From Candidatus Daviesbacteria bacterium RIFCSPLOWO2_01_FULL_39_12 (lineage in GTDB: Bacteria; Patescibacteriota; Microgenomatia; Daviesbacterales; UBA10151), in the NCBI GenBank assembly GCA_001776905.1, contig MFDM01000017.1, forward strand, positions 1-34,765: a DNA stretch of 34,765 bases, given 5' to 3'. How positions within the stretch are numbered: the stretch's first letter is position 1; every line of letters begins with the position of its first letter. A program made the position numbers and the translations under genes. Below are positions 1,186 through 24,631 of this stretch, one piece after another. Below the pieces are notes generated by a model. The model did not search any database and was not told the origin of the DNA. It saw only the letters and a program-made list of their open reading frames with translations.

Positions 1186-1222
1186 GTTTATCAAGCCTCT
1201 ACATTCATTTATACCATTTGCT

Positions 1223-1236
1223 TATACGATCGCATC
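1223..1236. promoter_or_regulatory. CGATCG-centred operator-like site, copy 1 (weak)
   Basis: TATACGATCGCATC overlaps the stop codon of the PaaX-like gene and lies upstream of the 204-aa gene. Ten of 14 positions match the perfect palindrome found in the PaaX-like gene's own promoter. On the minus strand CGATCG is directly followed by TATAAG, the same position relative to a -10-like box as at the 1746 site. Confidence 0.4.
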
Positions 1237-1735
1237 ATGAAATGGTACGGGTTAATTTATTGGATTCAATAATTACTACCCACTTCTCTATTCCTAAATC
1301 TTTAATGTAGGAATTTAATTTATCAAAAACATTTCTTTTAGAAATCCAAACACTTTTTTGTAAATGTTTAAAGCCCCATTTTTTTAAATTTCTTCTAAAA
1401 AGATTTCTGATAATTCTCTTTTGCTCTGGAATATCAAAAATTACAATTCGCCATTTCCCGTCCCATTTACTCTCATCAAATCCATCGCTAATTAGCTCTT
1501 TCCCAGCCAGAGTTAACTTGATTATTACATCATTTTTTAGCTTTACTTGCTCAATTAAACCACCTTCTCTTAATCTTTTAAGAGCTTGCGCTAAAGAAGA
1601 TTTTTTCAGCTCAGGAGCACCATAATGGTATCTATAATGATGATAAGCAAAATCCTCTACTCTAACATATCCATCAACTGCTTTTTCCAATACTAAAAGT
1701 ATCGCTTTAGTCAAACTCTTTTTGTAAACTCTCAT
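1235..1735 (-). CDS. PaaX-like transcriptional regulator with central Cas2-like domain
   Basis: 166 residues. Residues about 1-85 read as a winged-helix unit (a Lys-Lys-Ser-Ser-Leu-Ala-Gln-Ala-Leu-Lys-Arg-Leu recognition-helix pattern followed by a two-strand wing ending in Leu-Thr-x-Ala-Gly). Residues about 92-160 carry WDGKWRIVIFDIPE and then a Lys-Ser-Val-Trp strand, the ferredoxin-like Cas2-type middle domain of PaaX repressors. The usual PaaX C-terminal domain is missing, as in many short CPR homologues. It is therefore a predicted DNA-binding regulator, not a CRISPR Cas2: there is no array or other cas gene. Its own promoter has a perfect 14-base palindrome between -35 and -10, suggesting autoregulation (inference). 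The start ATG at 1735 lies eight bases after the -10, so the transcript is probably leaderless. Confidence 0.75.
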   Translation of the reverse strand: MRVYKKSLTKAILLVLEKAVDGYVRVEDFAYHHYRYHYGAPELKKSSLAQALKRLREGGLIEQVKLKNDVIIKLTLAGKELISDGFDESKWDGKWRIVIFDIPEQKRIIRNLFRRNLKKWGFKHLQKSVWISKRNVFDKLNSYIKDLGIEKWVVIIESNKLTRTIS

Positions 1736-1743
1736 ACCAATTG

Positions 1744-1771
1744 ATTGTACGATCGTACACTAAAATGTCAA
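1744..1771 (-). promoter_or_regulatory. Promoter of the PaaX-like gene
   Basis: On the minus strand TTGACA (complement of 1766-1771), a 16-base spacer and TACAAT (complement of 1744-1749). The start codon at 1735 follows after eight bases. The palindromic operator candidate covers the 3' half of the spacer and part of the -10, a position where a bound repressor would block RNA polymerase. Confidence 0.75.
1746..1759. promoter_or_regulatory. Perfect palindrome TGTACGATCGTACA: candidate autoregulatory operator
   Basis: A perfect 14-base inverted repeat inside the promoter of the PaaX-like regulator. Related CGATCG-centred sites occur at 1223, 9722 and 24531, all between genes. I saw no CGATCG inside any coding sequence of the window. 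Confidence 0.65.
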
Positions 1772-1786
1772 TTGTCAAGAAGATTT

Positions 1787-4700
1787 TTATTTATCTAAAC
1801 TTACATACTCATCCCAACTCTTTATCTCTAAATCTTCCATTTCTTTAGAGGTTAAGGCTGAGATCAACAGTTCGGCTGATTGTAGATTAGTCATCAGGGG
1901 AATGCCTAAATCTATACAATTTCTCCTGATTAAATATCCGTCTGTCTCAACCTTAGTTAATCCACTCTCGGAAATGTTGATAGCTAGATCAATTTTACCT
2001 TCCCTCAAAAGATCAACTACTGTTGGATATTTTCTCTCAGAAATTTTGCGCACTTTGGTATTATTAATGCCGGCACTTTGTAAAAGTTTTGAGGTTCCCT
2101 CTGTAGCAAAAATCCTCAAACCCATTCCGTAAAGGTGGATGGCTGATGGTAAGAAATCCAATTTATTTTTCTCACCACCAATTGATAAAAAAACACTTTT
2201 TTCCGGTAGTTTAAATCCGGTGGCAAGTAAGGCTTTAAGATATCCTTCTTCTAAATCATCACCAAAACAGGCCACCTCACCGGTAGAGGACATTTCCACT
2301 CTCAACCTGGGATCTGCCCCTTTAATTCTATTGAAAGAAAACTGAGGTGCTTTTACTCCCACATAATCTAAATCTATAGTTTTAAAATCTCCTGATAAGT
2401 GCTCCCCTAATATGACTCTTGTAGCCATCTCTACGAAATTATATCCTGTCACTTTGGACACAAACGGAAATGATCTGGAGGCTCTCAAGTTTAACTCAAT
2501 CACCAAAATTTTATTATCTTTTGCCAAAAACTGAATATTAAATGGCCCATTTATTTTAAGCTCCTTTAAAATTTTTCTGGTAGCATCCTTAATTTTTCTG
2601 ACAGTTTCTAAATAGAGTCTTTGGGGTGGTAAAACCATGGTGGCATCCCCTGAGTGTACCCCGGCATTTTCTATATGTTCTGATATAGCATAAATTAATA
2701 AGTTCCCATTTTGCCCTACCCCATCAATTTCAATCTCTTTGGCACCTTCCACAAATTTGGAAATTACTACCGGATGTTCACTGGAAACATCAATTGCCTG
2801 TTTGAGATATTTTTTAAGCTCGTTAGTTGAGTAAGCCACATTCATGGCTGCTCCTGATAACACGTACGAAGGTCTAATTAAGGCCGGGTAACCAATCATT
2901 TTGGCAAATATGACTGCTTCATCAAAAGTTTTAAGTAAACTCCACTGGGGCTGTTCAATTCTTAACTTATCCAAAAGAGCTGAAAATTTGTTTCTGTCTT
3001 CTGCTCTATCAATATTTTGCGGGGAGGTACCTAAGATTTTATAACCTGCCTTAAAGCAACTTAGGGCCAGATTATTTGGAACCTGCCCACCAAAACCTAA
3101 AACCAGTGAGGCATTTTTTTCTATATCATAAATATCAGAGACTCTCTCATATGTTAATTCCTCAAAATATAGCTTATCTGCTATATCATAATCTGTGGAG
3201 ACTGTCTCTGGATTGCAGTTTATCACGATAGTTTCTATTGTCTTTGCTCTCAAAGTTTTTGCGCAAGTGACAGAACACCAGTCAAACTCCACAGATGACC
3301 CAATCCTATACGGCCCGGAGCCCAGGACAATTGCTTTTCCCCTCTCCCTTTTCCCTTTTCCCCTTTCCCTTTCCTCAGATTCTTCTCCGTGGTATGTCAG
3401 ATATAAGTAGTTTGTCTTGGCCGGATATTCTGCTGCCAAAGTATCAATGTGTTTAACTTTAGGGGTGATGCCATGCTCTTTTCTGAAATCTCTGACCTTT
3501 TCTTCGGTTGTTTTAAAAGCTTGAGCTAAAACCTTATCTGAAAATCCCAGTCTCTTCGCATTTAGAATATTTTCTGCATTAAGTCTTAAGTTTTCAGCTT
3601 TAAGTTTTTTTTCAAATTCCACCATCTGCTTAATCTGATATAAAAACCAGGGATCAATCCCCGTGGCCGTATATATTTCTTCCACACTCTCTCCTCTTTT
3701 AAACCTTTGGGCAATCACAAAAATTCTCTGGGTTGAAGGTAGCAGTTTTGTCTCATCTATGCTGTTTGACAAAAGTCCATCCTGTTGTGTTTCCAACATT
3801 CTGATAGCTTTTTGTAAAGCTTCTGGGAATGATCTACCAATAGCCATTACCTCGCCCACTGATTTCATCTCTGAACCAATTACTTGATGCGCTCCCACAA
3901 ACTTCTGTAGATCCCATCTGGGGATTTTAACCACAATATAATCCAGGGCCGGTTCAAAAAAAGCAGAGGTGGAAAGAGTGACAGAGTTTTTAAGCTCAGG
4001 CAGGTTATAGCCCAAACCAATTTTGGCGGCAATATATGCCAGAGGGTATCCTGTTGCTTTCGATGCCAGGGCTGAGGAACGCGACAATCTGGCGTTAACC
4101 TCAATCACCCGATAATCGTTATTTTTTGGATTTAGGGCAAACTGAATATTGCACTCTCCCACAATCCCCAAATGCTCAATCACTTTTAAAGACAGCCTTC
4201 GCAAGAAATGATACTGATAATTATTTAACGTCTGAGAAGGTGCCACCACAATACTTTCCCCTGTATGAATTCCTAAAGGATCCAAATTTTCCATATTACA
4301 AACAGTGATTTTGTTCCCAATGTTATCTCTGACCACCTCATACTCAACTTCTTTCCAATGTTTCAAATATTCCTCAATAGCAACTTGAGGTACGTGTCTT
4401 AAGGTAGTGGAGACCGTCTTAATCAGCTCATCTTGATTATTAACAACACCGGATCCCAAACCTCCTAAAGAAAATGCAGATCTAATAAGAAGTGGAAAGC
4501 CCAACTTTTTGGCAATTCTTTCTGTCTCTTTGATGCTTCTAGCAAAACCGCCTTTGGGCACATTTATTCCAATTTCAGCTAAGGTATTTGCGAAAAGTTC
4601 TCTATCCTCAGTAACTTCAATACTTTTAACAGGGGTTCCTAAAACTTTTACCCCGTATTTTTTAAATACCCCGCTTTTGCTTAATGCCAAACCACAATTT

Positions 4701-8990: not shown

Positions 8991-9674
8991 ATGTCCACTT
9001 CAAAAAGTTTCAGTGTAAACCAAAAAGGCTTTGCTCCAATATTAATAATTATTTTAATAGCTGCTTTAGCAATTGGTGGATATTTGGTTTACTCCGATAA
9101 AATCGGAGTTTACCAAAACCAACCTAAACCTATTCCTTCTCCTCAACCAATGACTCAACCTTCTCCCAGTCCAGCTACTATCTATGAATCCACAAATTCT
9201 GCAGAAACTGCCAACTGGAAAACATATACACACTATGAACTTGGTTATACTGTTAAATATCCTGAAACTTGGTTATTTGATGAACCAAACTACCAACTAA
9301 CCTATTCAGAATTTACAATTAAAACTCCGGATCTAAAACGCGAAGGTGATTCTTATTACAGTATCGTAAAAGGATCGCAAATTTCTATCTCTGTAGGTAA
9401 ATACGCAACAAAGCTTAATTCAATAGATGATTACTTTGATAAAAATAAGTTTATGCAACAGATAACGGCAAATAGAAAACATATTATAATTGATGGACAA
9501 CCAGCTATAAGATTTGATCAAGCTTATGAAGGAATAAATAGTACTAACATTATTTTTCTTTATAATGGTTTGCTTTACACTATTGGTATTCATTTCCCCA
9601 TAACTGATAACTCAAGAACTACCAATTTAGATGTATATGAAAAACTAGTAAATTCATTTAGGCTGGCTAAATGA
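8991..9674 (+). CDS. KGF-anchored surface protein, 227 aa
   Basis: Start taken as the ATG at 8991, seven bases after an extended -10 (TATACT), with the bases between identical to those before the paralog at 10409. Residues about 9-34 (NQKGFAPILIIILIAALAIG) form the prepilin-like anchor. A Pro/Ser-rich spacer follows, then a globular region beginning NWKTYTHYELGYTVKYPETW near residue 75. This W-K-T-Y..Y-x-x-K-Y-P pattern recurs in the paralogs at 10409 and 21155 and is typical of secreted CPR proteins of unknown function. No cysteine is evident. Divergent from the DUF5678/retropepsin pair and sharing its promoter region. The stop codon opens a degraded recF-tail scar. Confidence 0.7.
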   Translation: MSTSKSFSVNQKGFAPILIIILIAALAIGGYLVYSDKIGVYQNQPKPIPSPQPMTQPSPSPATIYESTNSAETANWKTYTHYELGYTVKYPETWLFDEPNYQLTYSEFTIKTPDLKREGDSYYSIVKGSQISISVGKYATKLNSIDDYFDKNKFMQQITANRKHIIIDGQPAIRFDQAYEGINSTNIIFLYNGLLYTIGIHFPITDNSRTTNLDVYEKLVNSFRLAK

Positions 9675-9712
9675 ATTTTTCATCTTCCACCTTCAAATTC
9701 CTTCCTTAATAA
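9672..9712 (-). repeat. recF 3'-end scar 2 (degraded)
   Basis: Starts at the stop codon of the preceding gene. Its minus strand still reads NLKVEDEKF, recognisable against ILKVEDGKI of RecF, but homology fades after about 30 bases. Confidence 0.55.
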
Positions 9713-9721
9713 CCAATAACT

Positions 9722-9735
9722 TGTACGATCGCACA
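9722..9735. promoter_or_regulatory. CGATCG-centred operator-like site, copy 3
   Basis: TGTACGATCGCACA differs at one position from the perfect palindrome at 1746. Its context also matches the PaaX-like gene's promoter on the minus strand: a TAGTG before the site, then CGATCG, TACAAG as a -10-like box and TTATTGG (CAATTGG at 1736-1742). No minus-strand gene follows at once, so it may be a relic. Confidence 0.5.
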
Positions 9736-9757
9736 CTATATTGTTATCTATGCACGT

Positions 9758-9770: not shown

Positions 9771-9781
9771 GCGAGGCTAAA

Positions 9782-9830
9782 TGATATTTCCATCCTCCAC
9801 TTTTAAAATCCTGGATGAATCCAGAAAATT
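9782..9830 (-). repeat. recF 3'-end scar 3
   Basis: About 37 of 48 bases match the true recF end. The minus strand reads FLDSSRILKVEDGNI. Most differences from scar 1 are synonymous. The bases before it (GGCTAAATGA) also match the end of the anchored gene at 9665-9674, so part of that gene's 3' end was duplicated with the recF tail. Confidence 0.75.
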
Positions 9831-24104: not shown

Positions 24105-24503
24105 TTAACCTCTTGATTGTTTTCTGGCCAGAGGAAAATGAATTAAAAATAAAACAGCTCCAACCAACGTAAAAGTAATTGCATTTTTCATATCATCTAT
24201 TTTATGCTGTTTTCTATCTAACTCATCTTGTTTTATACAAGCCCGCTTTTGTTTTTCCAGCTCTTCAGCCGAAGGTGTAGCAGGTATTCCTCTTAAATCC
24301 ACAGTAGCAGCCGGGACAGGACCACCGTATTTATAAGGTACACCTTCACAATCACCTGGCATACTGTATCTGGTAGGATATTTATCATACTGGGTGGAGT
24401 TAATAATAAAATTAACAATATTAAAAATACCAATCACAATTAAAATCAAAGACCCTGCAGAAATTACATAAAAATATACGGTGGCAATTAACTTCCCTGA
24501 CAT
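24105..24503 (-). CDS. Two-TM membrane protein of unknown function, 132 aa
   Basis: TM helices at residues about 8-33 and about 108-124 flank a central loop. The loop contains CEGVPYKYGGPVPAATVDLR and a charged helix (about 78-105, Glu/Lys/Asp-rich, two Cys in total). Family not recognised with certainty; it resembles DUF5671-like CPR proteins. The start is fixed by an extended -10 TGC-TATAAT (24511-24519) seven bases upstream. A CGATCG-centred palindrome overlaps the expected -35 position, so this gene may belong to the PaaX-like regulon. First gene of a run continuing into tsaC and the RodZ-like gene. Confidence 0.6.
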   Translation of the reverse strand: MSGKLIATVYFYVISAGSLILIVIGIFNIVNFIINSTQYDKYPTRYSMPGDCEGVPYKYGGPVPAATVDLRGIPATPSAEELEKQKRACIKQDELDRKQHKIDDMKNAITFTLVGAVLFLIHFPLARKQSRG

Positions 24504-24510
24504 ATTCTAA

Positions 24511-24544
24511 ATTATAGCATAGACAAATACTGCACGATCGTGAT
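24511..24544 (-). promoter_or_regulatory. Promoter with CGATCG-centred operator-like site, copy 4
   Basis: TATAAT (complement of 24511-24516) with a TGC extension. The ten-base palindrome CACGATCGTG (24533-24542, within the 14-base site 24531-24544) covers the -35 position. A repressor bound there would block the gene starting at 24503. Confidence 0.55.
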
Positions 24545-24631
24545 ATGTCTATCTAAAATTTTGCTCTAATGATTCGTAACATGTAAAAAAATCATTATTT
24601 TCCTGAGCGAGATTATTTTGTCTCAATTATC

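Follow-up and report, generated by a model that had tools for sequence, protein, structure and literature searches.

PaaX, the phenylacetate repressor for which a structure from E. coli W is available (8a39), recognizes in E. coli an operator of the form TGATTC-N27-GAATCA, in which 27 bp separate two inverted hexamers, and acts as a repressor of its own Px promoter; when the cited review was written, no PaaX-operator complex had a known structure (PMC9493321). In RAYT-REP/REPIN systems, a gene with a Y1 (HUH) transposase domain is tied to its own family of small palindromes, dispersed in hundreds of copies and also flanking the gene (PMC3116915). In Rickettsia, palindromic elements of ~150 bp lie in frame within unrelated coding genes (PMC10969869). 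No paper joining PaaX with Cas2 or with palindromes was found in the literature library searched.

The locus described here lies in a window of 34,765 nucleotides, the whole stretch of DNA analysed, from a Candidatus Daviesbacteria genome (contig MFDM01000017.1). It comprises a gene for a small regulator of 166 amino acids (1235..1735, minus strand), located next to carB and, in relatives, to a fic-like gene, together with a 36-bp palindrome on each side of it. The simplest account is that of a PaaX-type autorepressor with twin operators: with a probability of roughly 0.7, the gene and its palindromes would form an autonomous cassette whose product binds both flanking sites, represses its own expression and reads the dyad through its Cas2-like domain.

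The regulator resembles PaaX in combining a winged helix-turn-helix (wHTH) domain with a Cas2-like fold and in the widely spaced inverted arms of its operator; autorepression, published for PaaX, would be a further point in common. Unlike PaaX, it lacks the C-terminal effector-binding domain, its operator is centred on a conserved CGATCG or CGGCCG, a second matched site follows the gene, the family counts many paralogs in one genome, every one of them with a site of its own, and the gene adjoins carB and not phenylacetate genes. With Cas2 (PF09827, TIGR01573) it shares a ferredoxin-like domain with FDIPE and LQKSVW motifs, but here this domain is fused to a wHTH, is tied to palindromic promoter sites next to carB and appears to read a specific base pair.

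The regulator gene and the palindromes of the window

The protein is made up of a winged HTH (residues ~1-85) and a Cas2-like domain (~89-160). The latter corresponds to the central PaaX_M domain (Pfam PF20803, 4.9e-23; 81.5 bits, cut-off 24), which is found in 43/43 aligned homologs. CRISPR_Cas2 is matched at 7.2e-6, and the Cas2 profiles pass narrowly (TIGR01573, 26.9 bits, cut-off 24.5; PF09827, 26.5 bits, cut-off 23.8), PF09827 being matched by 33 of the 43 homologs at E 0.01. Over residues 1-87, the secondary structure of the AlphaFold model and structural alignment match wHTH regulators, and the best Foldseek match of the protein is E. coli PaaX (8a39). The effector-binding domain is absent in that the chain ends at residue 166, just past the Cas2-like domain, with no other Pfam domain; the threshold of the NCBIfam equivalog PaaX_trns_reg is not reached (28.8 bits, cut-off 264.55).

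The promoter of the gene, on the minus strand, consists of a -35 box TTGACA (1766..1771), a 16-bp spacer and a -10 box TACAAT (1744..1749). The ATG (1735-1733) begins 8 nt past the -10 box, and given this distance the mRNA is probably leaderless. The predicted upstream operator (1735..1770; 13 of 18 pairs palindromic, dyad between 1752 and 1753) covers this core promoter and has at its centre the perfect 14-bp palindrome TGTACGATCGTACA (1746..1759). The first-pass annotation had placed this palindrome in the promoter of a PaaX-like regulator, and the 36-bp palindrome indeed extends over both boxes. A one-mismatch copy of TGTACGATCGTACA occurs at 9722-9735, with 0.37 matches of up to three mismatches expected in the window. 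The hexamer CGATCG occurs four times (1227, 1750, 9726 and 24535), where 0.85 would be expected and four were reached in 1 of 100 shuffles. None of the four copies falls within an ORF, as the annotation had claimed, although ~93% of the window is coding. Each forms the middle of an imperfect palindrome of 36 bp, with pairing at 12-14 of 18 positions.

The predicted downstream operator (1212..1247; CGATCG at 1227-1232, 14/18 pairs) is identical to the upstream site at 26/36 positions and overlaps the last codons and the stop codon of the regulator. Its CGATCG core is only 2 bp from that stop codon, so that the site at 1223, formerly assigned to the promoter of gene 1148, is not mainly a promoter site of that gene but flanks the regulator gene as its downstream twin. 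It matches R1, a 38-bp profile trained on window-type sites, with E=1.1e-7, a match by construction as the site belongs to the training set. The same holds for the predicted solo operator in an intergenic gap at 9711..9746 (R1 E=2.8e-9, training site included), described earlier as a related site with one mismatch and here found to share the specificity of the regulator's pair. This solo site is flanked by a 38-bp imperfect direct repeat (GGCTAAATGA...) at 9665-9702 and 9775-9812, 31/38 identical.

The fourth palindrome (24520..24555), which overlaps the promoter region of gene 24105-24503, is operator-like but of another specificity. It is matched neither by R1 nor by R2, a second profile trained only on flanking pairs of a PBP2-linked paralog; these profiles derive from the two family members found in the genome of the window (G000). 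Its best matches are the sites of L146, L159, L049 and L026, homologs from other genomes whose counterparts were not found in G000. The site may be the relic of a lost family member or belong to an undetected one, and the proposed link between the regulator and gene 24503 is not borne out.

Twin sites and residue 127 across the homologs

Twin matched flanking sites are a trait of the regulator family. Among 115 distinct homologs, 63% carry a matched pair, defined as upstream and downstream sites identical at 23/36 positions or more, against 4% in a control where upstream sites were paired with the downstream sites of other genes; the same detector finds no matched pair in 37%, mainly distant homologs. 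In the flank listing, a palindrome with a common core stands on both sides of nearly all close homologs. Upstream sites are centred ~20 bp before the start codon and downstream sites ~15 bp after the stop codon; direct orientation of the pair is favoured (56:14), and identity within a pair reaches 34/36. In 50 of 73 cases, the own downstream site of a gene is the top-ranked of 73 for its upstream site, and site distance tracks protein distance (Mantel r 0.47 and 0.44, p=0.001). The -35 and -10 boxes keep a fixed register inside upstream sites, the -35 register being that of the window in 44 of the 73 paired elements. A promoter function of the downstream site was considered and rejected, the signal being barely above background.

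Genomes of the same family contain up to 11 homologs with a patchy distribution, and paralogs within one genome each have a private site. Named records with homologs are mostly Candidatus Daviesbacteria, with other Patescibacteria. Carriage by viruses was discarded, no relative of the regulator being present among viral contigs. A distinct site for each gene and many paralogous cassettes in genomes of ~1 Mb would set this unit of Patescibacteria, whether regulatory or selfish, apart as unusual.

The two central base pairs of the sites are either AT or GC (CGATCG versus CGGCCG), and this choice tracks a single alignment column, residue 127, located in the motif LQ[K/Q]SVW of the Cas2-like domain; in the regulator of the window it is K127, within LQKSVW. 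In upstream sites, A:T and G:C cores number 48:0 with K127 and 1:15 with Q127, the one exception being a Q protein with an AT core; in downstream sites the counts are 45:0 and 0:15. After APC correction, the coupling between residue 127 and the core (z 11.6) is the strongest of all site-by-residue pairs, the next reaching 6.3. On a gene tree built without the residue-127 column, residue 127 changes ~11 times and the core ~10 times, and the best tree contains 10 independent pairs differing at this residue. Three of these pairs lie on well-supported branches and all three are concordant, a sign test on them alone giving p=0.25. As GC cores are absent among K proteins and an AT upstream core occurs with a single Q protein, the other pairs can be discordant in at most one or two cases. 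The code is illustrated by L160 and L165, whose proteins are 84% identical and differ both in K/Q and, at both flanking sites, in A:T/G:C; their upstream sites are identical save for the core.

In the AlphaFold model, residue 127 is at the tip of a beta-hairpin. Weaker couplings connect outer-arm positions of the site with wHTH residues 46, 47, 63, 77 and 81, and together the two sets of couplings support a geometry that places the winged HTHs over the arms and the Cas2-like domains over the dyad. A single residue of the Cas2-like domain, K or Q at 127, thus appears to set which centre of the site is read. This correspondence offers a one-residue test of the Cas2-like domain as a sequence reader, for which L160 and L165 are a natural pair ready for use.

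The co-variation between upstream and downstream sites and between residue and base rules out, for practical purposes, that the palindromes arose by chance. Nothing favours such an origin except the shortness of the 14-mer, and it is further opposed by the excess of the 14-mer and of CGATCG in the window, by the frequency of matched pairs relative to the control and by the dependence of the sites on the presence of the gene. The palindrome is very probably a binding site of the adjoining small repressor.

From the architecture, pairing, co-variation, gene dependence and residue-base code, all seen in the sequences, we infer binding, a dimer geometry, repression and roles for the downstream and solo sites. 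The protein, a PaaX-type repressor devoid of an effector domain, would bind the palindrome as a dimer, its two winged HTHs touching the outer arms and its Cas2-like domains lying over the dyad, where Lys127 would read A:T and Gln127 G:C. Binding to the upstream site would cover the -35 box, the spacer and the -10 box and thereby repress the gene's own, probably leaderless promoter. The downstream site would be a second cognate site that probably acts in concert with the first, either by looping the DNA or by shielding the unit from its surroundings as a roadblock. Solo sites, few in number, would be extra cognate sites, retained only as long as the gene is present.

Solo sites and their distribution

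The strict 14-mer is present in 4-5 copies in each of the genomes G000, G006, G015 and G029, all of which have close orthologs of the regulator. In nine relatives without a family member it is absent; the reversed control gave no match. R1 gives the same pattern with a few extra sites and essentially none in the nine relatives; because it was trained on its own sites, this near-absence elsewhere is its informative part. Sites matching R2 again follow the presence of the cognate PBP2-linked paralog, and as R2 was trained on flanking pairs alone, its strong solo matches do not depend on the training. The survey of solo sites covered families of the K type. The operator is conserved at orthologous promoters, the outcome that footprinting beside orthologs had been proposed to reveal, and its sites occur only in genomes with the cognate gene. 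In G025, which yielded no gene of this type, the rsmI site has a core decayed to CGACCG.

Solo copies are few per genome and most of their positions are lineage-specific, not common to different genera. Exceptions are the prmC site, which G000 and G029 have in common, and the sites in rsmI and in the HD-hydrolase gene, each found in two genera. Sites within coding sequences affect prmC, murD, recO, murB, argS, rsmI and genes for an HD hydrolase, a GatD-like and an FtsJ-like protein, names that reflect a reading of the sequences and not a family search. One of the five 14-mer sites of G000 lies inside prmC (a full one-mismatch 14-mer, C6:8190), and the avoidance of genes perceived in the window does not extend to the genome. 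Matches in alaS (G006, G015 and G029) have the appearance of normal conservation of a coding sequence and were kept out of the firm sites.

Several intergenic G000 sites are located ~20-115 bp ahead of a start codon, a position expected of a classical regulator controlling a small regulon that includes genes 1148 and 24503. This explanation is quite unlikely in view of the twin nature of site 1223, the other specificity of 24531, targets mostly not conserved between genera and the intragenic sites. The regulon claim of the first-pass annotation thus stands for the self-operator of a PaaX/Cas2-like regulator and falls for a conserved small regulon of genes 1148 and 24503. Dispersed sites, some of them in genes, and a wHTH that resembles the centromere-binding proteins AspA and TubR, among many others, could also evoke a chromosome-organising or centromere-like (parS-like) site; the occurrence of several paralogs with private sites in one genome and the promoter register of the sites make this very improbable.

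Under the autorepressor reading, the intragenic solo sites and the mostly direct orientation of the pairs are unexplained by simple repression. Several genes with an intragenic site encode an identical short peptide there, but recurrence of the peptide frame was set aside as uninformative, since the site apparently leaves open only some of its frames. The rsmI, recO and prmC sites fall in variable loops, while in alignments those of murD and the HD hydrolase involve hardly any change of length, and precise insertion of the palindrome into genes was rejected as a general rule. Like Rickettsia palindromic elements, the repeats occur in frame within unrelated coding genes; they differ in their size of 36 bp, in their predicted tie to a cognate DNA-binding protein and in the little or no insertion seen in two cases. 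In the HD-hydrolase gene of G002 (L322), an in-frame insertion encoding RPDRGSSLDSRLRGNDN, which looks like another interspersed repeat, occupies the loop that bears the operator in G003 and G032. In G003, two sites of PBP2-linked specificity lie 188 bp apart near an EF-G-like gene (L297, ~2934-3155; G003:C1:275934-276150), with no repressor gene between them.

Presence, absence and possible transfer of the cassettes

The carB-fic junction carries the cassette in four genera and in further records and lacks it in six others; at the PBP2-dprA junction, about ten genomes have it and others do not. Cassettes are therefore gained or lost whole. Empty carB-fic junctions contain no palindrome, and a search for empty sites bearing a solo palindrome of the same kind as a scar was negative at carB-fic and at tight PBP2-dprA junctions. 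The orthologous groups are syntenic with mostly ordinary divergence. Recent mobility of the window element was rejected: it is syntenic after carB in four genera, and its protein identity of 82-84% is near the 79% of CarB.

These data bear on a selfish system of the RAYT/REP type, in which the protein would disperse or convert its own palindrome and the gene between direct copies would be a mobile cassette. Flanking repeats in the same orientation and up to near-identity, scattered copies that differ in position between lineages and in part lie within unrelated coding genes with identical short peptides, the multi-copy and patchy family and the whole-cassette polymorphism at both junctions all point in this direction. 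As in RAYT-REP/REPIN, the gene is tied to its own small dispersed palindromes, which also flank it. However, the regulator matches no transposase family and, in Pfam and NCBIfam, no Y1 domain, its copies are few where REP sequences number hundreds, its sites also occur inside genes and one sits on a promoter. Synteny and ordinary divergence of the main gene groups, empty junctions free of palindromes and the unchanged length of the murD and HD-hydrolase genes argue in the same sense, and among selfish hallmarks neither a transposase domain, nor a high copy number, nor an insertion signature was found. Such a system is accordingly judged unlikely, and about the same odds, if anything slightly lower ones, are given to a Cas2-fold protein that would maintain and spread its own 36-bp sites, both beside its gene and within housekeeping genes, as a selfish element with no known transposase.

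At the PBP2-dprA junction of G033 (L277), a repressor of a distant subfamily (~40% identity) is accompanied by a different palindrome, and this junction thus seems to have taken different cassettes. At the same junction in G022 (L274), a solo TGTGCGATCGTACA palindrome at position 3770, before dprA, is almost identical to the upstream site of L114; no close ortholog of the L114 gene is present among the G022 family members seen. Finally, comparison of L048 (G000:C3) with L045 (G006:C17) gives 90% identity for the repressor and 94% for the following region with an EamA-like transporter gene, against 62-73% for flanking genes, which suggests that the repressor and the EamA-like region were transferred together.
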